From NCBI GenBank assembly GCA_016936815.1, contig JAFGXD010000036.1, positions 1 through 37,071 of the forward strand: a stretch of 37,071 bases of DNA, in the 5' to 3' direction. The stretch comes from Bacteroidales bacterium (GTDB lineage: Bacteria > Bacteroidota > Bacteroidia > Bacteroidales > GWF2-38-335). The position numbers and the translations under genes were made by a program. The notes beneath the pieces are model-generated. The model was not told the origin of the DNA, ran no database searches, and saw only the letters and a list, made by a program, of their open reading frames with translations. This document shows, piece after piece, positions 24,963 through 34,252 of the stretch. Numbering within the stretch: position 1 is the first letter of the stretch; every line of letters starts with the position of its first letter.

Positions 24963-26744
24963 TTATTCTTCAATATTCCAATCTTCTTCTATTTCCCAGT
25001 TGTTTTTTATTATAACTGTCTTCGAAAAATAAATAACATTTTCGGCTTGTCTTTTGAAAATAAAACGTCCTGTATCGTACCTTTTGTTCTTATTTTCGTC
25101 AATTATTGCTCTAAAATTCAACTCTTGTGCCTGCATTTGCACAAATTTCATTTTTTTGTTTTTTTCAAGATAAAATTCTCTAATAACATTTTTCTTTGTT
25201 TTGTCGAGCATCTGAATAATTACCGATTCTTTTATTCCTCTTACATTAAGAATTAATGTACCGTAATCCTCTGTTGTTTTTGTGTTAAATGTAAATTCTG
25301 AGGAATCACAAGGAATTGAGTAATAATCTATAAAAGCCAGTGAATCGAAATAAATAAAATATCTGGCATTTTCTTCCCATTTGTAGTTAATTGAGAACTT
25401 TCTTGGATTTTCGGGGTCTTTTTCGAGACTAAAAACACAGGCTTTTTTTGTAGTATCCTCTTCAACCAAAAGCCTGATTTTGTCTAAATTAACACTCATA
25501 ACCGGAGAGGATGCTTCAATAATTAATGGTTTGCCAAAGTGTTGAACTCCTTGTTGCAGCTTAATTTCAACCTTAATTACAGGCTTGGCTTCTATTTCGT
25601 CTTTTTTCTTTTTGTCGGCAGGCTTTTTGTAAACAAGAAATGTGGTATCTTTTTCTATTGAAATATTTTCCAAAGAATCTTTTTGTTCATATTCGAAAAT
25701 AAGACCCAAAGAATCTTTTTTAATTAATAAAAAATCTGTAAACCAAAATGTTAAGCTATCCGAAAGTTTTGATTTTTCCACAAGATATTGATTGGAATCT
25801 AGTTTAAAATTCAAGCCGTAAAAAACTAAATGTCCATAATTTGGTTTAGAAAAAATGACTTCGGCATAATGTTTTAATGTCCTTGTTTTCTTTGAAATAC
25901 TCTGTTTCTTATGGTCTTCGGTAAACAATTTTAGGTAAAGATTGTCGGGAAGAAATTTGTTATACTCACGATTAATTATTGTGTCTATTATTTTTTCCTT
26001 TATGGTAGTATCAGGATTTGATTGGTATAGAGTGTCTAATTTGGTTTCCGAAGAAATATGAGGAATAATTAGTGAATCAAGAAAAGCAATTCCCTCGGTT
26101 GGTTGGTCGAATTTGTAGTTGTTATTAGCATCTTGCAGGGCAAAAATTTTGTAATTTCCTGAGGAGAGGTTGTTAAGAGTAAAAACTCCGTCTTTTCTGG
26201 TTTTGGTTATGTAGTCGGGTAATGAACGCATTGGTGCTGTATCGCTGTGGTTTCTGTAAAGCATTACAAAAACGTCGGCTGCAGGTTCCAAAGTAAAAGC
26301 ATCCTTAATCTGACCCTTTATTCTAAGAGAATCTATCTCATTTCCGGTTGAAAAAACATAGTTGAAGCCCGAAATTGGGTTTGCTTCGGTAATATCAACA
26401 ATTGCATCGCCAAAGAACATCGAGTATGTTGTGTTTGGCTTTAAGCTGTCTTTAAATTGAATAATTATGTTTTTTCCTCTTAATTTAAATTCGGGTTTTT
26501 CTTCCAGAGGAGGAGAAATTAACAATTGCTGATTAATGTTGTTAAGCTTAACAAATTCATTGAAAGTTAATTGAATAGACTTTTCAGCAAAATTTGTTGA
26601 ATTGTTTTTCGGAAAACTTTCAACAATAACAGGAGCATCATTATCTTTCTCGCCACCACTCAATTCTCCCTGATTTGCGCAACTAACAATTAATCCCGCA
26701 AGGAAAAACAAACAAAACAAACGGTATTTTTGCCAAAATTTCAT
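24963..26744 (-). CDS. Ig-like domain lipoprotein
   Basis: This 593-residue protein starts at the ATG at 26744; a GTG two codons upstream lies inside the -7 promoter box. The lipoprotein signal ends at Cys22 (LAGLIVSCANQ). An N-terminal bacterial Ig-like (SbsA-type, Big_5) domain follows (about 35-130; APVIVESFPKNNSTNFAEKSIQLTFNEFV, LKPNTTYSMFFGDAIVD). Next is a carboxypeptidase-regulatory-like domain (about 140-220; LRIKGQIKDAFTLEPAADVFV, DGVFTLNNLSSGNYKIFALQDANNNYKFD). The C-terminal part has two further beta-rich segments. Such lipoproteins are widespread in Bacteroidota envelopes with no assigned role. It follows the TPR gene but has a separate promoter. Confidence 0.85.
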   Translation of the reverse strand: MKFWQKYRLFCLFFLAGLIVSCANQGELSGGEKDNDAPVIVESFPKNNSTNFAEKSIQLTFNEFVKLNNINQQLLISPPLEEKPEFKLRGKNIIIQFKDSLKPNTTYSMFFGDAIVDITEANPISGFNYVFSTGNEIDSLRIKGQIKDAFTLEPAADVFVMLYRNHSDTAPMRSLPDYITKTRKDGVFTLNNLSSGNYKIFALQDANNNYKFDQPTEGIAFLDSLIIPHISSETKLDTLYQSNPDTTIKEKIIDTIINREYNKFLPDNLYLKLFTEDHKKQSISKKTRTLKHYAEVIFSKPNYGHLVFYGLNFKLDSNQYLVEKSKLSDSLTFWFTDFLLIKKDSLGLIFEYEQKDSLENISIEKDTTFLVYKKPADKKKKDEIEAKPVIKVEIKLQQGVQHFGKPLIIEASSPVMSVNLDKIRLLVEEDTTKKACVFSLEKDPENPRKFSINYKWEENARYFIYFDSLAFIDYYSIPCDSSEFTFNTKTTEDYGTLILNVRGIKESVIIQMLDKTKKNVIREFYLEKNKKMKFVQMQAQELNFRAIIDENKNKRYDTGRFIFKRQAENVIYFSKTVIIKNNWEIEEDWNIEE

Positions 26745-26749
26745 TGGCA

Positions 26750-26780
26750 CAAAAGTACTATTTTATTTCAACAAGCCCAA
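26750..26780 (-). promoter_or_regulatory. Promoter for the Ig-like lipoprotein
   Basis: On the minus strand, TTG (26778-26780), a 20-nt spacer and TACTTTTG (26750-26757) fit the consensus exactly. The -33 part lies inside the end of the TPR gene. The -7 box ends five bases before the ATG at 26744, so the mRNA would be nearly leaderless. Confidence 0.55.
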
Positions 26781-27389
26781 TCCTTCCTTGGCCGAACTAT
26801 CATCGGGTGATAAAAGCAGCACTTTATTAAAAAGTACCTTGGCTTCTCTATGGTTGCCTAACTGAAAGTTGCACCAGGCATACATTAGAAGCCCGTCGTA
26901 GTCGAAAGGATACAGATTAACTACTTTTTCTAAATAGCTGTTGGCTTTTGTGTAATCTTTTCTTTCGTAGTAAATTACACCTAATCTGTAGTTTGCAACT
27001 GAATTCTGAGGGTCAACTTCCAGTATTTTTTTGTACTGAGTAATTACTTCGTCCCAGTTTCCCATGGCAGAAGCCGGATAAACTATTCCAAAACGTGCTT
27101 CAATTCCATAAGGCATTAGATTTATGGCTTTTGTGTAGTAAGATTTTGAGGTTGTAAACTGACCGGCAGAGTAGCTTAACCAGCCCAAACGAAGATTTAT
27201 TTCGTAAGAATCTTCTTTGTAAACTTTTTTTATTTCATCAATTGCTTTGTTGTACTCGCCTTTTGTCTCCAATTCGTATGAAGTTTTGAAGGCCGATTGA
27301 ATTTCAGCATTGGTTTGTGCATTAATTTTTGAAAATGCAAGTGCCAGAATAATAATTCCGGTAATCGAGAATTGTTTTAAAACTGCCAT
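26763..27389 (-). CDS. TPR-repeat secreted protein, last gene of the PqqD/ATP-grasp operon
   Basis: This 208-residue protein has a signal peptide (1-24, ending KINAQ) and about four to five tetratricopeptide repeats (FKTSYELETKGEYNKAIDEIKKVY, NLRLGWLSYSAGQFTTSKSYYTKAI, YRLGVIYYERKDYTKANSYLEKVV, YAWCNFQLGNHREAKVLFNKVLLL). It is probably a periplasmic scaffold that binds a partner protein. Its start overlaps the TPR/beta-barrel gene by 13 bp. An AGGAGG sequence lies 6 nt upstream of its ATG, a strong Shine-Dalgarno of a kind Bacteroidota rarely use. The coupling suggests the two TPR proteins work together. Confidence 0.8.
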   Translation of the reverse strand: MAVLKQFSITGIIILALAFSKINAQTNAEIQSAFKTSYELETKGEYNKAIDEIKKVYKEDSYEINLRLGWLSYSAGQFTTSKSYYTKAINLMPYGIEARFGIVYPASAMGNWDEVITQYKKILEVDPQNSVANYRLGVIYYERKDYTKANSYLEKVVNLYPFDYDGLLMYAWCNFQLGNHREAKVLFNKVLLLSPDDSSAKEGLGLLK

Positions 27390-28726
27390 TTTATACCTCC
27401 TGTGAATGTGTTTGTGTTAAAAATTTCTGGTTCGGGGGTTTGAAATTCTATTGGAGCATCCTCTTCGAATTTCTCGTAAAACCCATCGCCGCGGTTTTTG
27501 TTTAATGAATATCTTAAATAATATTGAATCTTGTTTTTTGGTCTGTACAAATATAATGTAATTTCGGTTTTCGATAATATGGTGCTTGTGTTATTATAAA
27601 CCAGAAGTCCGTCCGACTCTAAATAATTCATTATTTCGCCTATGGTTAATGAGCCTTCCAACCAAAGGTTTCTATAAATTTTTGAGCCTGCTTTAATTCT
27701 AATAATTTGTCGCTGAATGCTATCGTTTTCCGTAACACTAGAAAATTCACCAAAAAGGTATTGATTGAGATTTCCGAATGGTAGTATTGTAAGTCCGGCT
27801 CCAAACTGTGTTTGATGCTCTAAATTTAGATTTGACTTAGCCAGAAAACCGTTGATTTGAAAAATGGAAAAACCCTGAGTAAAACTTAAGAACTTTACGA
27901 AATTTCTTTCCCTTGTATTACTGCTTTCCATTCTAGCTCCTCGGCCTCTAAAACTCTCGGTGCTGCTTCCAATAGAATGAATTCCAAAACCAAAATTGCT
28001 TCTTTTAGCAAGTTGCAGCGAAAACTTTCCGTAGTATTGCGTTTGTTTAACCTTTTGTTCGTCAGATAAGTAGCCTTCTAGTGGGGGAGGAGTAGGCATA
28101 ATAGGAGGCATAGACAAAACTTGTCCGCTTAAGCTTAAAAATGTAATTGCATGTGAATAAGAAAGTCTTTTTCCCATTAAATGATTAAGATAAATGTATG
28201 TGTTTGTGAAATTGTTAGTAATAGTTTTTTTAGAATTTGGAAAAAGTGTTTCGGGGCTAACTTCAAGTTGCGAATTGAATGAAGGATTTGAGAAAATATT
28301 CATTTCGGCAGCAAAACCACTTACAAAAGGCTTGTTTTTTGGGATTTGTAAATAATCTAACTGACTATCACTAAGTTTCTTTTCATAAAACAAGGCTGTT
28401 TTATAATTACCTGTATTCCTGTATATTGAGTATAAATAATAGTTTATTGTTGTGTCGCCCGAATTAAAACTTCTAGCTTTATCGAAATGCTTTTTTGCCC
28501 ATAAATAATTTCCTTTTTCATAAAGAGCAATGCCTAATCTCATGCGAAGGTAGTAATAGTCTATGTCGTTTTTAATTGCCTTTTTCCCCAGCTTTATAAT
28601 CTCATCCCAGTTTCCCTGAAGATAGTATTCGTATGTTTTATTATTCACAAAAGCGTAATCTATACTATCCTGAGCGCTTGTTCTCAAAACAAAAGAGAGT
28701 AATATAATTAAAACTATTCTGAACAT
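27377..28726 (-). CDS. TPR plus beta-barrel outer-membrane protein
   Basis: I use the ATG at 28726 (449 residues), which puts the signal peptide first (MFRIVLIILLSFVLRTSAQ). TPR-like repeats (about 30-115; TYEYYLQGNWDEIIKLGKKAI, RMRLGIALYEKGNYLWAKKHFDKA) lead into a long beta-rich C-terminal part (about 135-449). That part has alternating strands (YGKFSLQLAKRSNFGFGIHSIG, GIKWQF) and ends in a terminal Phe, as in an outer-membrane barrel. The plan resembles YaiO-type proteins, but I cannot confirm that family. It overlaps the upstream UT-M23 gene by 13 bp and the downstream TPR gene by 13 bp. Confidence 0.72.
   Translation of the reverse strand: MFRIVLIILLSFVLRTSAQDSIDYAFVNNKTYEYYLQGNWDEIIKLGKKAIKNDIDYYYLRMRLGIALYEKGNYLWAKKHFDKARSFNSGDTTINYYLYSIYRNTGNYKTALFYEKKLSDSQLDYLQIPKNKPFVSGFAAEMNIFSNPSFNSQLEVSPETLFPNSKKTITNNFTNTYIYLNHLMGKRLSYSHAITFLSLSGQVLSMPPIMPTPPPLEGYLSDEQKVKQTQYYGKFSLQLAKRSNFGFGIHSIGSSTESFRGRGARMESSNTRERNFVKFLSFTQGFSIFQINGFLAKSNLNLEHQTQFGAGLTILPFGNLNQYLFGEFSSVTENDSIQRQIIRIKAGSKIYRNLWLEGSLTIGEIMNYLESDGLLVYNNTSTILSKTEITLYLYRPKNKIQYYLRYSLNKNRGDGFYEKFEEDAPIEFQTPEPEIFNTNTFTGGIKWQF
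27396..27401 (-). promoter_or_regulatory. Strong Shine-Dalgarno sequence for the TPR gene
   Basis: AGGAGG on the minus strand lies six bases before the ATG at 27389, ideal spacing. It also encodes part of the TGGI segment near the end of the overlapping barrel gene, so it may be partly fortuitous. Most starts in this window lack such a site. Confidence 0.5.
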
Positions 28727-30894
28727 ACGGCTTTGAATGATTTCTTTTTGTTTTCGCAAGAAATTTCTTTAACTCCTTTGCTATCAATTATTAATGTGTA
28801 GTCGTTTTTCTTCAAAATAAAACTAAAAACTTGCGATTTTACTTGCGATTTAAGTTCAATAATACTTGGCCAGTTTTCGTCATCGGTTTTGTGGTATTGT
28901 ATTTTGAATGTTGTTTTCATTGCAACAAATACCGGAGCAATAAAATCCTGCAATAACAAAAGTGGCTTATTTGCAAATGTTTGCACAGGCAATTGGTCTA
29001 TTAATTCCAAATCTTTATAAAAACCTTTTTGTAATTTATAGGCTGATAGATAAAAATGATAAAGCAGAGATTTTTTCTTTCCCTTGAAATTATAGAAGTA
29101 AAAAAGGTCGTTGTCGCTATAAAACCAAGCAGTAGAGTTCGTTTTTTTACAGTAGAAATACGAATTGTTGTAAATATCTGCAAAAACTTCCCATTCCTCG
29201 GTTTTATTGTTTTGCGTAAACTTAATAACCTGACCCGGAATAAAATGAAATGCTTTTTTAAGCAGCGGATTTGTTTTAATATTCGAAACGGTTTGGTTTT
29301 CTTTTGGAATTGAAAAGCTTTGCATTTCGAAGCCCATTTTGGTTTTTGCAACAAAATGACTTATTGGATAAGAAATAGTTTTTGAACCGATAAAAGGAGT
29401 TGCCTGAAGCTGAAAGTGTAAATGCGGCTGTGGCGACCTTCCTGAATTTCCGCAGGCTGCCAGAACCACTCCCTGACTTACATAATCGCCTTTTTTTACT
29501 TTAAAAGAACCCGATTTTAAATGCGAAAGTTTTGAATATAGAAATTCGGCATGCTTAATAATAATGGTGTTTCCCCAGTTATTTTCGAGATTTACATCTC
29601 CAATTTCATTATCGGGAATTCCGTCTTGAATTTCTTCAACAACTCCATGACCGGGAGCTAAAACAGGCTTATTATAGCAGAAAAAATCATCTGGTTTAAT
29701 TCCGTTGTTTTTAAATAATTTGCCGTTTTCATCCTCAATTTCAAAATCCCAAGCATGTTGCCATTCATCTTTGTGTGTTATTTCTCCATTATGTCCCTGA
29801 CTTACTTTCCATTCTCCCAAAAATGGCAGTTTAATTGGCAGTTTGTTAAAAGTTCCAAACCTAGTTTTATTGTTTTTGTAGGTGTAAAGGTTTTTTTCGG
29901 GCGAATAATTCTGAACGGGAACTTCCACTAATCCCTGAGTTGGTTTAACCCTTAATTTCAAAACATAAAGAAAAAGAATTACAACCACATTAAAAGGTAA
30001 AGAATAAATGGGAAGTTTGTAAACCCAAAAAATTGTTGAAGTACTAATAGTTATCATTGCCACAACAGGAACTAGAATCACAGTCCATAAATAAGTTCTT
30101 GAGTTTGGAACCAAAAAAAAGCTTCCTATAGCAATTGAAGTAAGAATATAGTTAAAACCTATGTATGAATAGGAGATTTCAGCAATTTCCACACCCATTT
30201 TTTGGTAGAAAATAAAAGCAGCATAAAAGCCAATAATTGAAATTGTGAAGGCAATTCTTGAATAAATAAGCAAACCTATGGCAATAATAATTCCTGCAAT
30301 TACTTTAGATTGAAACAAGATAGAGCCCAGCGACATTAAATAAACTTCAATCCATTGAGGCAGCGAAACATCTTTCCACCACAAATATAAATCTACCAAT
30401 TGTTGTCCGCCCGTTTTATATAATTCGTTGAATACCAGAATATTTCTTTCACTAATTATTAATTCCTCGAATTCTCGGGTGGCAAGTGTAACAGTCCAAA
30501 TTCCAATAAGAAAGGGAATGCTGAGGAATGGAAGGCCGTATTTTCCAATTACCCCTTCAGCCATTACAGTTACCAAAAAGGTAAAAATGGAAATAAGAAT
30601 AAGTATGAAGAGTGAAAGATCACCGGGTTCGAAGTAAATCCCAAGTCCAAGTCCAACCAAAAGCGCATTAAAACCATAAATGCCTGTCGAAATTTTTGCC
30701 AAATCGAAGCCCATGGCAAGTCCTGTTGTATTTGCTGTAATAATAGCAATTAGTCCATAAATTCCTGAATATAAGTCGAAAAAAGAAACAAAAAGCAGCA
30801 AAATGGCAAATACCAAACTTTTACTGAAAAATACCTGAGTGTAAGAATTCAGTACACCAAGTGAATAGAGTTTTGCTTGCTTTAAGTATTGCAT
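28714..30894 (-). CDS. Urea-transporter-like channel fused to an M23 peptidase domain
   Basis: This 726-residue protein has an N-terminal membrane part (about 25-312, roughly ten helices). It shows the paired urea-transporter signatures GFNALLVGLGLG (74-85) and GFNYILTSIAIG (246-257), the two homologous halves of a UT channel. After a linker comes an M23/LytM-like domain (about 355-500; PVLAPGHGVVEEI, GNTIIIKHAEFLYSKLSHL, KKGDYVSQGVVLAACGNSG, HLHFQL at 491-496). A C-terminal segment of about 225 residues is unassigned. The usual first zinc motif HxxxD reads QHAWD (379-383), so the His sits one residue off and activity is uncertain. It lies 12 bp after the decarboxylase gene. Confidence 0.85.
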   Translation of the reverse strand: MQYLKQAKLYSLGVLNSYTQVFFSKSLVFAILLLFVSFFDLYSGIYGLIAIITANTTGLAMGFDLAKISTGIYGFNALLVGLGLGIYFEPGDLSLFILILISIFTFLVTVMAEGVIGKYGLPFLSIPFLIGIWTVTLATREFEELIISERNILVFNELYKTGGQQLVDLYLWWKDVSLPQWIEVYLMSLGSILFQSKVIAGIIIAIGLLIYSRIAFTISIIGFYAAFIFYQKMGVEIAEISYSYIGFNYILTSIAIGSFFLVPNSRTYLWTVILVPVVAMITISTSTIFWVYKLPIYSLPFNVVVILFLYVLKLRVKPTQGLVEVPVQNYSPEKNLYTYKNNKTRFGTFNKLPIKLPFLGEWKVSQGHNGEITHKDEWQHAWDFEIEDENGKLFKNNGIKPDDFFCYNKPVLAPGHGVVEEIQDGIPDNEIGDVNLENNWGNTIIIKHAEFLYSKLSHLKSGSFKVKKGDYVSQGVVLAACGNSGRSPQPHLHFQLQATPFIGSKTISYPISHFVAKTKMGFEMQSFSIPKENQTVSNIKTNPLLKKAFHFIPGQVIKFTQNNKTEEWEVFADIYNNSYFYCKKTNSTAWFYSDNDLFYFYNFKGKKKSLLYHFYLSAYKLQKGFYKDLELIDQLPVQTFANKPLLLLQDFIAPVFVAMKTTFKIQYHKTDDENWPSIIELKSQVKSQVFSFILKKNDYTLIIDSKGVKEISCENKKKSFKAVCSE

Positions 30895-30906
30895 TTTATA
30901 ACAATA

Positions 30907-32262
30907 TTATTTCTTTTGAATAAGGTGAGCAGGAACTTGTTCGAAAGCATTCATAGATTCGTTGGTTTCGTTGTTTCTTATGACATGAGTTTTGCCATCA
31001 GTGTCAATAAGAACAATATTTGGCCTAAGAGTAATAAACTGAAGCCATTGAGTCATGTTATAAGCTCCAATTCTGGAAATAACCACATGGTCGCCTTTTT
31101 TAAGTAAGGGGAAGCTGATATTATCGCGAATTACGTCAATATTCATACAAAGAGGCCCGTAAATTGTTGTGTCTTCGGTATGTTGGGTAAAAGTTTGAGC
31201 AGGAGTAATTTTATGTTCGTACCAAAAAGAAGTAAATAGCAGATTTACTCCTATGTCAATTATCATGCTTCTTCTTCCATCGGCAAGTCGTTTGTTAGCG
31301 AGGGTTGTGCCTAGCAAATATCCGGCATCGTCTATTAGTGCTCTTCCGGTTTCCAGGATTAGCATTGGAAGGTTTTCGGGTTTAATTTCCGAACGAAGAA
31401 TTGCAGAGCTAATAGCCTCGGCGTAATCGTCGAAAGAGGGACAAGTGTCTGTTCCGGGTAAATATGCGCCTTTTAGAGTGTTTTTAGAAGCAAAGCCACC
31501 GCCCATATCAATATATTTAATGGCATGGGAGAATTTTTTTTCAATTCTTGCAGCAAGGTCTGAAAGTTTGGAAGCGGCTACACCATAAGCTGAGGCAGTC
31601 ATAATGTAAGTGCCAATGTGAGTATGTAAGCCTACAAGCTCCAGATTGTCGTTAAGTAAAATTCTGTTTAGAGCATCCCAAGCTTCTCCGTTTTCGTAGT
31701 TAAAACCAAATCTGTCCCATTGCGGATAAATACCGGCATCCATATTAACTCTAATAGCAACTTTTGCAATTTTTCCAATTCTTGAGCTAACTTCAATAAG
31801 AGAGTAAAGTTCGTCGAAATGGTCTAAATGAATTAGCGATTCGTTTTTTACTGCAAGTTCCAAATCCTGAGACGATTTTTCGGGGCCGTTAAAAATAATG
31901 TGTTTACCCGGAATTCCGTTATTAAGGGCTTTATTATATTCAAAACCCGAAACCACCTCTGCCCATGAGCCTTCGGAATGAAAAACATTACAAATAGCAT
32001 TAAGGTAATTGGTTTTGTACGACCAAGCAAACTGCACTTTGGGGTAGCGAGTATCGAAAGCTCTTTTGGCTTCGCGGAAAGTTTTTCTAATAGTTCTTTC
32101 GGAAACAACATAAAGAGGAGAGCTATATTTTGCTATAAGTTGATTTACAGGAACTTCATCAATATGCGAAATAGGATTATATTCGGTTTTTAGTCCGAAT
32201 TTATTTGGCATTCCTGTGTTTAGTTTTTTTATTATTGGTCTTTCGAAAGGGAGCTTTTCCAT
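30907..32262 (-). CDS. Fold-III PLP-dependent decarboxylase (DapDC/ODC-like)
   Basis: This 451-residue cytoplasmic enzyme belongs to the alanine-racemase-fold decarboxylases. The PLP lysine is Lys83 (FAWSYKTNYL). HTHIG (213-217), GGGF (254-257), ETGRAL (304-309) and the catalytic-loop cysteine GPLCMNIDVI (Cys372) are all present. Family members decarboxylate meso-diaminopimelate, ornithine, arginine or carboxy-polyamines. The end of the active site (GAYNMTQWLQF instead of the GAYxxSMASNYN of lysA) and the linkage to ATP-grasp and PqqD-like genes argue against housekeeping lysA. The substrate is probably a diamino acid or related compound. It is third in the operon, 30 bp after the ATP-grasp gene. 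Confidence 0.85.
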   Translation of the reverse strand: MEKLPFERPIIKKLNTGMPNKFGLKTEYNPISHIDEVPVNQLIAKYSSPLYVVSERTIRKTFREAKRAFDTRYPKVQFAWSYKTNYLNAICNVFHSEGSWAEVVSGFEYNKALNNGIPGKHIIFNGPEKSSQDLELAVKNESLIHLDHFDELYSLIEVSSRIGKIAKVAIRVNMDAGIYPQWDRFGFNYENGEAWDALNRILLNDNLELVGLHTHIGTYIMTASAYGVAASKLSDLAARIEKKFSHAIKYIDMGGGFASKNTLKGAYLPGTDTCPSFDDYAEAISSAILRSEIKPENLPMLILETGRALIDDAGYLLGTTLANKRLADGRRSMIIDIGVNLLFTSFWYEHKITPAQTFTQHTEDTTIYGPLCMNIDVIRDNISFPLLKKGDHVVISRIGAYNMTQWLQFITLRPNIVLIDTDGKTHVIRNNETNESMNAFEQVPAHLIQKK

Positions 32263-32292
32263 GGTATTATTTTTTTTGAAAATTGTTTATTA

Positions 32293-33339
32293 CTATAATT
32301 CGCCTGTTGTTGAAATTTTTTCGAAGGCTTTTAAGTCGCAAATCATGTCGTATGAATAACGCACAAACATGGTTCCGGTTTTGTAGGTGGTATAAGGTTT
32401 TACATCCATCCCCAAAGCCAGTTTAACAAGAGCTTCGGGAAGATTTTGACCGGCACCCACGGCAAGATAGACCCACGCGGGAATTCTGGGGTTTATTTCG
32501 ATAAGGAGATAATCGTTATCTACAGTTTTAATTAGTTCCAGTTCCATTCCGCCCCGCCATTTTGTTTGTTTAATAATTGAATTAGTTAAAGCGAGCATTT
32601 TCTTATCGTCAATGGTTATTCCTCCCCAAGCTTTTCCTTTGTTGGTAATATATTGTTTTCTCATTGGTACAGCGCCAATAGTGTTTCCGTTTCCGTCGCC
32701 CAGAGCAATAACATTAACTTCTGTTCCTTTAACAAATTCCTGAATAATAACGGGAGTTCCCCATTTGGAAGTAATTTTATTAAAATGGTTTATAACCTGT
32801 TCGGGATTGTATGCCAGATAAGCATCGTAGTATTTTCCTTTAACAAGAACCGGATAATCGAAATCTCGGGTTAAAGTATAAACTTCTGAAACACTGAATA
32901 TTGTTTTGCTTTTTGGTACGCTTACGCCATATTTTTTACCGAATTCCGATAGCACTGCTTTATGACGTTCCTCGAATTGTTCTAGAGTAGGAAGAAAAGT
33001 TTTTATTCCCATTTCCTCGAGTTTTGTTGCCGATTTCATAAATGAGTACAATTCGGCATCGAAATTTGGAATAAGAACATCAATATTTTCAATGGAATTA
33101 ATATAATCGAGTCTTTGCAAAAGAAGATCGGTTCCGGTTGAAGGGTATGGCATTTGATAGACTTTCTGCACATGGTCGCGCATGTAGATTCCGGGTTCCA
33201 GATTTTCGTAGGCCAGACCAATAATTCTAACCTCGAACAAATCAGATTCCATAAGTGAACGAATTACCGGAATACCCGGGCCGGGATTATCGGTATTATT
33301 AAGACCTGTAACCGCTATGGTAACTTTAGTTTTAGTCAT
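32293..33339 (-). CDS. ATP-grasp ligase
   Basis: This 348-residue protein (ATG at 33339) has a preATP-grasp Rossmann-like region (about 1-100; TIAVTGLNNTDNPGPGIPVIRSL, VLIPNFDAELYSF). An ATP-grasp domain follows (about 110-310) with DYPVLVKGKYYDAYLAY, PVIIQEFVKGTEVNVIAL and the metal-binding ELELIKTVDNDYLLIEINPRIPAW. It resembles short carbamoyl-phosphate-synthase-like ATP-grasp enzymes. Such enzymes join a carboxylate, through an acyl phosphate, to an amine or thiol. The gene starts inside the end of the PqqD-like gene (8-bp overlap, ATGACTAA). An earlier in-frame ATG at 33363 would enlarge the overlap to 32 bp and is less likely. Substrates unknown. Confidence 0.88.
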   Translation of the reverse strand: MTKTKVTIAVTGLNNTDNPGPGIPVIRSLMESDLFEVRIIGLAYENLEPGIYMRDHVQKVYQMPYPSTGTDLLLQRLDYINSIENIDVLIPNFDAELYSFMKSATKLEEMGIKTFLPTLEQFEERHKAVLSEFGKKYGVSVPKSKTIFSVSEVYTLTRDFDYPVLVKGKYYDAYLAYNPEQVINHFNKITSKWGTPVIIQEFVKGTEVNVIALGDGNGNTIGAVPMRKQYITNKGKAWGGITIDDKKMLALTNSIIKQTKWRGGMELELIKTVDNDYLLIEINPRIPAWVYLAVGAGQNLPEALVKLALGMDVKPYTTYKTGTMFVRYSYDMICDLKAFEKISTTGEL

Positions 33340-33580
33340 TTTTTTCAAGTAATTGGTATGCATATAGCATGTTAATAAAGTCGTTGAAGCTGCTTTCGAA
33401 GGTCATTTCATCTACATCGTATTTTTCCAGAATTTCTTTTTTTATTTCATCTTTTTCAACACCTTCTTTTAGACGATTAAGATATTCAATTCCAATTTCG
33501 TTAAGAGAAAAAGATTCTCCGGTTGTTGGGTCGAAAACAAATCCGGTTTCCGATACTGCAATACTTTTCTTTATTTTCAT
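33332..33580 (-). CDS. PqqD-like small protein
   Basis: This 82-residue protein (ATG at 33580) is similar to PqqD-family peptide chaperones: a beta-hairpin start (SIAVSETGFVFDPTTGESFSLNEIGIEYL) and a helical end with a DEIKKEILEKYDVDEMTFESSFNDFI pattern. PqqD-type domains bind the leader of a precursor peptide and hand it to the modifying enzyme. Here the partner would be the ATP-grasp ligase, whose gene overlaps it. No precursor peptide is visible nearby. A TTG start six codons earlier is possible, but it lies in a predicted -7 box. It is the first structural gene of the operon. Confidence 0.8.
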   Translation of the reverse strand: MKIKKSIAVSETGFVFDPTTGESFSLNEIGIEYLNRLKEGVEKDEIKKEILEKYDVDEMTFESSFNDFINMLYAYQLLEKND

Positions 33581-33646: not shown

Positions 33647-34252
33647 TTACAATTTTTCGTTTATCAAATCTTCCAGAGGAATTTTTTTAAACTCTCCTGC
33701 TTTTTTATAGTCTGTAACAGAAATTCCGGTAACAGTTTTAAACTGGGTAGATAAATACTGAACGGAATTATAGTCCATCATATAAGCTATTTCGCTTAAA
33801 GTGTACTCGTCGGTAAGAATCATTTCCTTAATTTTTTCGATTTTATTAAGAATAACGAATTTTTCTAAAGTAAGGCTTTCGTGCTTGCTAAAGAGTTTAG
33901 AAATTTGCTGGTAGCTCATATTCAGTTTTTCCACCAGATAATCGGAACGGCGTACAATAGAATCCATATTATTCATGTGGTGCACAAGTTCCACAACGGC
34001 CTGTTTTATTTGTTCCACAATAATTTTTTCCCTTTCCACAACAATTCCAAAGCCATTTTCAACCAGAATTCCCTCAATTTTTTTGTAGTTTATTTTTGAA
34101 GAATCGTAAGAAACAGAAGCAAAACCAAGTCTGATGTTATGTATTTGAACCCCGCATTTTTCTAATTCCATGCGGACAATACGTATGCAGCTTTTGCACA
34201 TCATATTGCGAATGAAGAATTCTGAGGTTTGTATGTTTTGTTTGTTGCCCAA
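33647..34252 (-). CDS. AraC-type regulator with an N-terminal HMA-like CxxC domain
   Basis: This 201-residue protein starts with a small ferredoxin-like domain (about 8-75) with MMCKSC (Cys19, Cys22) in the place of the metal-binding loop of heavy-metal-associated domains. It ends with an AraC/XylS DNA-binding domain (about 100-200). There, SYQQISKLFSKHESLTLEKFVILNKIEKIKEMIL is the first helix-turn-helix, and LSEIAYMMDYNSVQYLSTQFKTVTGIS the second with the usual signature. It probably senses a metal or a thiol/redox state and activates nearby genes. It is followed after 66 bp by the PqqD-like gene on the same strand. The sensing role is inferred from the CxxC. Confidence 0.82.
   Translation of the reverse strand: MGNKQNIQTSEFFIRNMMCKSCIRIVRMELEKCGVQIHNIRLGFASVSYDSSKINYKKIEGILVENGFGIVVEREKIIVEQIKQAVVELVHHMNNMDSIVRRSDYLVEKLNMSYQQISKLFSKHESLTLEKFVILNKIEKIKEMILTDEYTLSEIAYMMDYNSVQYLSTQFKTVTGISVTDYKKAGEFKKIPLEDLINEKL

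Follow-up and report, generated by a model that had tools for sequence, protein, structure and literature searches.

A window of 37,071 nucleotides was analysed, comprising positions 1 to 37,071 of contig JAFGXD010000036.1 in the Bacteroidales bacterium assembly GCA_016936815.1. Positions 26763 to 33580 of its minus strand carry six consecutive open reading frames (ORFs), referred to here as the cassette, which encode a PqqD-like protein, an ATP-grasp ligase, a fold-III pyridoxal phosphate (PLP)-dependent decarboxylase, a fusion of a urea transporter (UT) fold with an M23 metallopeptidase (UT-M23), a protein joining TPRs to an outer-membrane beta-barrel (TPR-barrel) and a small TPR protein (Table 1). 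An ORF check of the window found all six where the initial annotation had placed them. The start positions reproduce its five junctions: the PqqD-like gene (end at 33332) and the ATP-grasp gene (ATG at 33339) overlap by 8 bp, gaps of 30 and 12 bp separate the decarboxylase gene from the ATP-grasp and UT-M23 genes, respectively, and overlaps of 13 bp join the TPR-barrel gene (ATG at 28726) to the UT-M23 gene on one side and to the small TPR gene on the other. The families were confirmed by Pfam and NCBIfam.

Table 1. Cassette genes and candidate regulator gene in the window
Product	Position	Strand	Basis
PqqD-like stand-alone RiPP recognition element (RRE) protein	33332..33580	-	Pfam PqqD; TbiB1 5v1u; synteny; ATG 33580, alternative start TTG 33598
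ATP-grasp ligase, ATPgrasp_Ter / PRK12767-like	32293..33339	-	Pfam ATPgrasp_Ter E = 3.4e-10; invariant residues
Fold-III (alanine-racemase-fold) PLP decarboxylase, N-citrylornithine-decarboxylase-like, CM[NQ]ID motif	30907..32262	-	Pfam Orn_Arg_deC_N E = 2.1e-29 and Orn_DAP_Arg_deC
UT fold (residues 1-345), M23/LytM metallopeptidase (~350-530) and C-terminal beta-rich part	28714..30894	-	Pfam UT E = 2.7e-60, Peptidase_M23 E = 6e-15
Four TPRs and 14-strand outer-membrane beta-barrel	27377..28726	-	AlphaFold and structure matches; Pfam TPR and a region without family
Small TPR protein, N-terminal signal-like stretch, cassette end	26763..27389	-	Pfam TPR_2 E = 8.5e-23
HMA-like domain fused to AraC-type helix-turn-helix (HMA-AraC), candidate regulator	33647..34252	-	Pfam HTH_18 E = 1.3e-11; MerTP/CopZ-type HMA matches at N terminus

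The six genes almost certainly form one functional unit, as had been proposed together with a check, gene-neighbourhood conservation across Bacteroidota, which bore the proposal out. The comparison covered 107 loci selected by the ATP-grasp protein only, blind to the other cassette genes, and loci with too little contig are left out of each denominator. The PqqD-like gene adjoins the ATP-grasp gene in all 100 testable loci and the decarboxylase gene lies next to it in all 95, while the UT-M23 gene is near it in 80 of 82. The small TPR gene was kept in 66 of 70 loci and a TPR-barrel was detected by sequence in 52 of 70; a separate protein that gives the impression of a beta-barrel from its sequence follows the small TPR gene in 13 loci, mostly those without the fused TPR-barrel. 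Loci of a distant Neomarinimicrobiota branch have a barrel-like protein ahead of the PqqD-like protein, and UT-M23 is found beside the first three genes or nearby on the opposite strand. Inserted proteins of type IX secretion system (T9SS) type, located between the ATP-grasp and decarboxylase genes at three loci (L114, L127 and L139), were dismissed as not general. Across 72 loci, the four core proteins show correlated pairwise divergence (r = 0.69 to 0.91), to which shared species history contributes.

Among 296 genomes of the phylum Bacteroidota, close relatives of the ATP-grasp protein (E of ~2e-90 or better) were identified in 27 (~9%, the source genome included), far ahead of the next matches, at 1e-15. 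A relative is encoded in at least 556 stretches matched by a pattern scan of GTDB species genomes, mostly from Bacteroidota; the best 80 of these were fetched and are labelled Bacteroidota, Ignavibacteriae/Chlorobi, Kapaibacterium or Neomarinimicrobiota. The UT profile PF03253 scored above its cut-off in 35 of the 296 genomes, namely, all 27 with the cassette and eight others. The UTs of those eight are plain channels with frames of ~280 to 308 amino acids, and the long fused form occurs only in cassette genomes, where the frame is long except in one split copy (G005), one shortened copy of 535 amino acids that retains the M23 domain (G255) and one at a contig end (G124). Given the synteny in the 107 loci and this phylogenetic profile of the fused channel, the unit lies far beyond chance. 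A unit so strictly kept over several hundred species must serve a purpose worth keeping, and the UT-M23 fusion is, in this sample, an exclusive genomic marker of it that makes searching and genetics easy.

Particular attention was given to the decarboxylase, as the initial annotation had named its being the organism's only lysA as grounds for abandoning the proposal. For this one 95%-complete assembly that holds, with no other LysA above the TIGR01048 cut-off present; the assembly may have a gap here, lysine may be made by a divergent route or the organism may be auxotrophic for it, and a second decarboxylase match in the source genome appears from its sequence to be closer to short-form arginine decarboxylases. 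It does not hold for the family, since 13 of 14 other cassette genomes carry a separate LysA and the residues with which LysA binds its substrate are absent. In LysA, the acidic residue after the catalytic cysteine (CE[ST]) and the arginine of an RP motif bind the distal end of diaminopimelate. All 13 LysA sequences from cassette genomes have both, whereas the cassette enzymes compared all have CM[NQ]ID and no RP, and the two groups split in the tree at 99/96. On these grounds a role as LysA in lysine biosynthesis was rejected. Among solved structures, the N-citrylornithine decarboxylase 7kh2 is the nearest relative and ranks above every LysA, and FslC branches with the cassette enzymes, as a long branch. 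With the LysA profile TIGR01048 the protein scores 217 bits, below the cut-off of 297.9 bits; its best NCBIfam match is NF041039 (N-citrylornithine decarboxylase) at 225 bits, below the 500-bit cut-off.

Residues K83, C372, M373, Y401 and Q405 are invariant in 96 cassette decarboxylases. FigC/FslC has M355 in place of the acid that would hold the distal amine (PMC7857480), and M373 is the same replacement; the alanine-racemase-fold decarboxylases that act on conjugated amino acids (clade 2 of PMC7857480) are marked by loss of the acid, a feature shared by the cassette enzymes. The FigC residues H357, R387 and N389, which bind citrate (PMC7857480), correspond here to I375, Q405 and L407 (L or M across the family). 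Because methionine replaces the acid in all 96 enzymes, the pocket appears suited to a substrate that lacks a free distal amine, though not to citrylornithine itself, as the citrate contacts are replaced and the analogy ends at the missing distal acid.

The ATP-grasp protein is closest to the PRK12767/carbamoyl-phosphate-synthase-like group, and its matches included no graspetide or microviridin model. Residues E276, E289, N291 and R293 do not vary across 105 sequences. A gene on a Streptomyces zaomyceticus plasmid encodes a 758-amino-acid protein (WP_327166871) in which an ATP-grasp enzyme and a fold-III decarboxylase are fused. Of all proteins in the plasmid collection, it gave the best ATP-grasp match, through its N-terminal half (28% identity; E = 9e-25); the fold-III decarboxylase makes up the C-terminal half and carries the CM motif in the sequence GRSCMENDIL. 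This natural fusion, strong though single evidence, argues that ligase and decarboxylase carry out consecutive steps, and it is likely that the two act on one substrate. The earlier idea that they make an amine-type conjugate is supported. In the plasmid region (L187:11998-16431), the gene after the fusion resembles, by eye and with no Pfam match, a transglutaminase-type cysteine enzyme and is followed by a fatty-acid desaturase; the region is probably a related, unexplored actinomycete pathway.

The PqqD-like protein matches Pfam PqqD with E = 2.9e-9 (37.5 bits against a cut-off of 23.4), and among solved structures it comes closest to TbiB1, an RRE protein of a lasso-peptide system (5v1u; E = 6e-5), RRE standing for recognition element of ribosomally synthesized and post-translationally modified peptides (RiPPs). 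No carrier-protein family in Pfam or NCBIfam matched it. The absence of a visible precursor peptide, remarked on for the source locus, extends to all 107 loci: no conserved ORF of 20 to 80 amino acids was found in or near them, and the 1,041 small ORFs searched gave only close-relative matches. The protein may bind a remote peptide or present the ligation partner in another way, and the cassette would offer a second context for RRE proteins, one without a visible precursor. In distant cassette members, a small secreted protein of ~140 amino acids, mostly with CxxxxxCxWC near the C terminus, is encoded upstream of the PqqD-like gene (L199:10534-10959, L200:2126-2569, L201:7027-7458, L055:8106-8564 and L058:10772-11266). 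It was rejected as a precursor because L058 lacks the cysteine motif and no other locus was found to encode the protein.

For UT-M23, the AlphaFold model (predicted local distance difference test [pLDDT] score of 92) has a complete UT fold in its first 345 residues, which match UT-B and dvUT over ~310 aligned residues (Z of 36; PF03253 score of 204 bits). Residues ~350 to 530 match LytM/M23 domains (Z of ~14), the metal-binding and catalytic residues H374, D383, H458, H491 and H493 are invariant in 59 sequences, and the C-terminal 190 residues are beta-rich. The signature of urea transporters is LPxxTxPF, in place of which the cassette proteins have LPxLSxPF or LPxxSLPF. A clear urease was identified in one of nine tested cassette genomes, with only weak partial matches (E of ~1e-5) in two more, compared with five of the eight plain-UT genomes; thus, a role of the fused channel in urea nutrition is unlikely.

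The M23 part had been expected to act in the envelope, which the predicted topology does not support. Per protein, K/R residues number 11.2 on the UT side that bears the termini and 2.6 on the opposite side (loop boundaries being drawn by hand from predicted helices), with the same direction in 59 of 59 sequences, and no hydrophobic segment lies between UT and M23. SLC14 transporters cross the membrane with 10 transmembrane (TM) segments, their termini lying inside the cell and the TM5/6 loop outside (PMC5650669). This homology and the charge bias together predict that the M23 domain is probably cytoplasmic, which is unusual for this family and the main correction to the initial annotation; the urea-channel fold, for its part, appears to have a non-urea use here. 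At L034:11980-12080, the reading frame changes between the UT and M23 halves at seven consecutive T residues, owing to a sequencing error, a recent frameshift or slippage; given the poly-T run and an M23 piece without a good start, this split was not used as evidence on topology.

What had been described as two TPR envelope proteins can be refined in that one combines four TPRs with a 14-strand outer-membrane barrel (AlphaFold pLDDT of 91.5; the strand count was read from predicted secondary structure). Its nearest barrels are of the FadL/CymA/OmpG type (Z of ~18 to 21), its TPR part matches TPR designs (Z of ~15), and BcsC and AlgE are among its Foldseek matches. An export route is plausible, in keeping with the envelope passage that had been suggested for the product.

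The HMA-AraC gene lies on the cassette strand, 66 bp upstream, and 12 bp past the last cassette gene a Big_5 lipoprotein gene (24963-26750) begins; the transcript may thus extend beyond the six genes, and the lipoprotein gene may be part of it. Across the loci of relatives compared, the Big_5 lipoprotein gene is not a conserved downstream neighbour. No site with a Bacteroidota-type promoter pattern was found upstream of the cassette, and Rfam and tRNA scans were empty. An HMA-AraC gene is near the cassette in 30 of 89 loci; a CC pair (KNMxxxCC) is common in the cassette-linked copies, whereas CPRC is retained in paralogues next to copper-ATPase-like genes and the first cysteine is gone from others. 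Further neighbours include MJ0754-related ferritin-like DUF2202 lipoproteins (14 of 64 upstream), T9SS-sorted proteins with Por_Secre_tail (9 of 64 upstream and 8 of 41 downstream) and, occasionally, ZIP and ABC-3 metal transporters. In ~13 loci, FG-GAP or T9SS-tailed secreted proteins are encoded directly upstream of the PqqD-like gene (e.g., L040:6622-7698). These recurrent but not universal neighbours hint at metal or envelope-stress regulation; a metal theme built on DUF2202, ZIP and HMA-AraC was not adopted, as it applies to only a minority of loci.

We tentatively suggest, as a reading with a reasonable chance of being right in full though still short of probable, that this is a dedicated synthesis-and-export cassette. 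The ATP-grasp enzyme would join an amino acid to a carboxylate partner, held or presented by the PqqD-like RRE protein and probably a peptide or protein encoded elsewhere, and the decarboxylase would then strip the alpha-carboxylate from the conjugated amino acid, as in rhizoferrin and butirosin side-chain synthesis. These two steps are suggested by family chemistry, the motif and the fusion. Fold, predicted topology and gene order point to the later ones, in which the cytoplasmic M23 domain, at the mouth of the urea-type channel, would cleave the conjugate, the small neutral product would exit through the channel, and the TPR protein and TPR-barrel would carry it across the periplasm and outer membrane. 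It is doubtful, though worth stating, that such loci constitute a class of RRE-assisted metabolite pathways, mainly in Bacteroidota and their relatives, in which a channel-tethered cytoplasmic M23 domain frees the decarboxylated conjugate directly into the channel; if true, product release and transport would be coupled in one protein. Several points weigh against the synthesis-and-export proposal. M23 peptidases normally act outside the cytoplasm, and UT channels are passive and let only very small neutral solutes pass. The fusion from Streptomyces is a single case with a long-branched decarboxylase half, the first three genes occur without an intact UT-M23 in a few loci (L065, L069 and the interrupted L093), the citrate contacts of FigC are lost, and no conserved small ORF accompanies the cassette.

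In a rival reading, the amine made by ligase and decarboxylase would be attached to peptidoglycan or an envelope protein, with a periplasmic M23 domain opening peptidoglycan stem peptides and the TPR proteins serving as scaffold. The best M23 fold matches are the cell-wall endopeptidases Csd1-Csd2, DipM and ShyA (Z of ~14), an outer-membrane barrel and TPR proteins are present, and T9SS-sorted secreted proteins recur beside the cassette; however, the uniform positive-inside bias and the complete UT fold place M23 inside, with no hydrophobic segment at the junction, and envelope modification is unlikely. The RRE protein, which is nearest TbiB1 and strictly adjoins the ATP-grasp gene, could instead point to a RiPP-type pathway with a remote precursor, ATP-grasp/RRE pairings being known from RiPP clusters. 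There, RRE and ATP-grasp proteins would modify a peptide (as a C-terminal or side-chain amide), the decarboxylase would trim the added residue, M23 would be the leader peptidase and the barrel the exporter. We consider this quite unlikely in view of the small-ORF result, an ATP-grasp protein nearest the PRK12767-like group and without graspetide or microviridin model matches, and a UT channel too narrow for peptides.

The neighbouring HMA-AraC, DUF2202 and occasional ZIP or ABC-3 genes, the relationship of the decarboxylase to the siderophore enzyme FslC and the HMA-AraC paralogues beside copper-ATPase-like genes would agree with a metal-related small molecule, either a carboxylate-type metallophore or a metal-handling metabolite, under HMA-AraC control. 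Two thirds of the loci, however, have no metal-type neighbours, the cassette has no TonB receptor or NRPS-independent siderophore (NIS) synthetase, many cassette-linked HMA domains have lost CxxC (e.g., NMVSNCC), and the FigC citrate-binding residues are not retained, which leaves this explanation improbable. Ordinary metabolism, with the decarboxylase as LysA and the channel as a urea importer, is the reading that the family names in Pfam and NCBIfam invite and would suit a source assembly with no other LysA above the cut-off; it is already contradicted by the separate LysA genes, the absent CE[ST] and RP motifs, the tree and the urease distribution, and is hardly tenable.

No description of this gene combination, with its exclusive UT-M23 fusion, was found in the literature searched, although an ATP-grasp amidoligase survey (Iyer and co-workers, 2009) may already list the neighbourhood. 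Each part belongs to a known family, and ligation followed by decarboxylation has precedents. In the butirosin system, BtrJ is an ATP-grasp ligase. BtrI/BtrJ/BtrK resemble the first three cassette genes in pairing a small protein (~85 amino acids) with an ATP-grasp ligase and a fold-III decarboxylase that acts on a conjugated amino acid, BtrK decarboxylating glutamyl-BtrI (PMC7857480). BtrI is a phosphopantetheine carrier, whereas the small protein here is PqqD/RRE-like, and the UT-M23, TPR and barrel proteins have no butirosin counterpart. Rhizoferrin synthesis by FslA/FslC (FigA/FigC) shares a decarboxylase of an N-acylated diamino acid, with the closest solved relative (7kh2) and the same C-M motif, but its ligase is an NIS synthetase rather than an ATP-grasp enzyme, and H357, R387 and N389 are not conserved in the cassette. 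With stand-alone RRE systems of RiPPs, such as that of the lasso-peptide protein TbiB1, the cassette shares the RRE family of its small protein; it has no precursor peptide or RiPP cyclase, and the partners are a PRK12767-like ATP-grasp enzyme and a decarboxylase. The TPR-barrel exporters PgaA, BcsC and AlgK/AlgE likewise combine TPRs with an outer-membrane barrel, in one protein or as partners, but no polymer synthase is present in the cassette and its barrel is nearest small-molecule channels of the FadL/CymA/OmpG type. The urea transporters UT-B, dvUT and Yut share the complete UT fold (Z of ~36 to the human and Desulfovibrio proteins), whereas the cassette channel is fused to an M23 domain and an extra beta-rich part.

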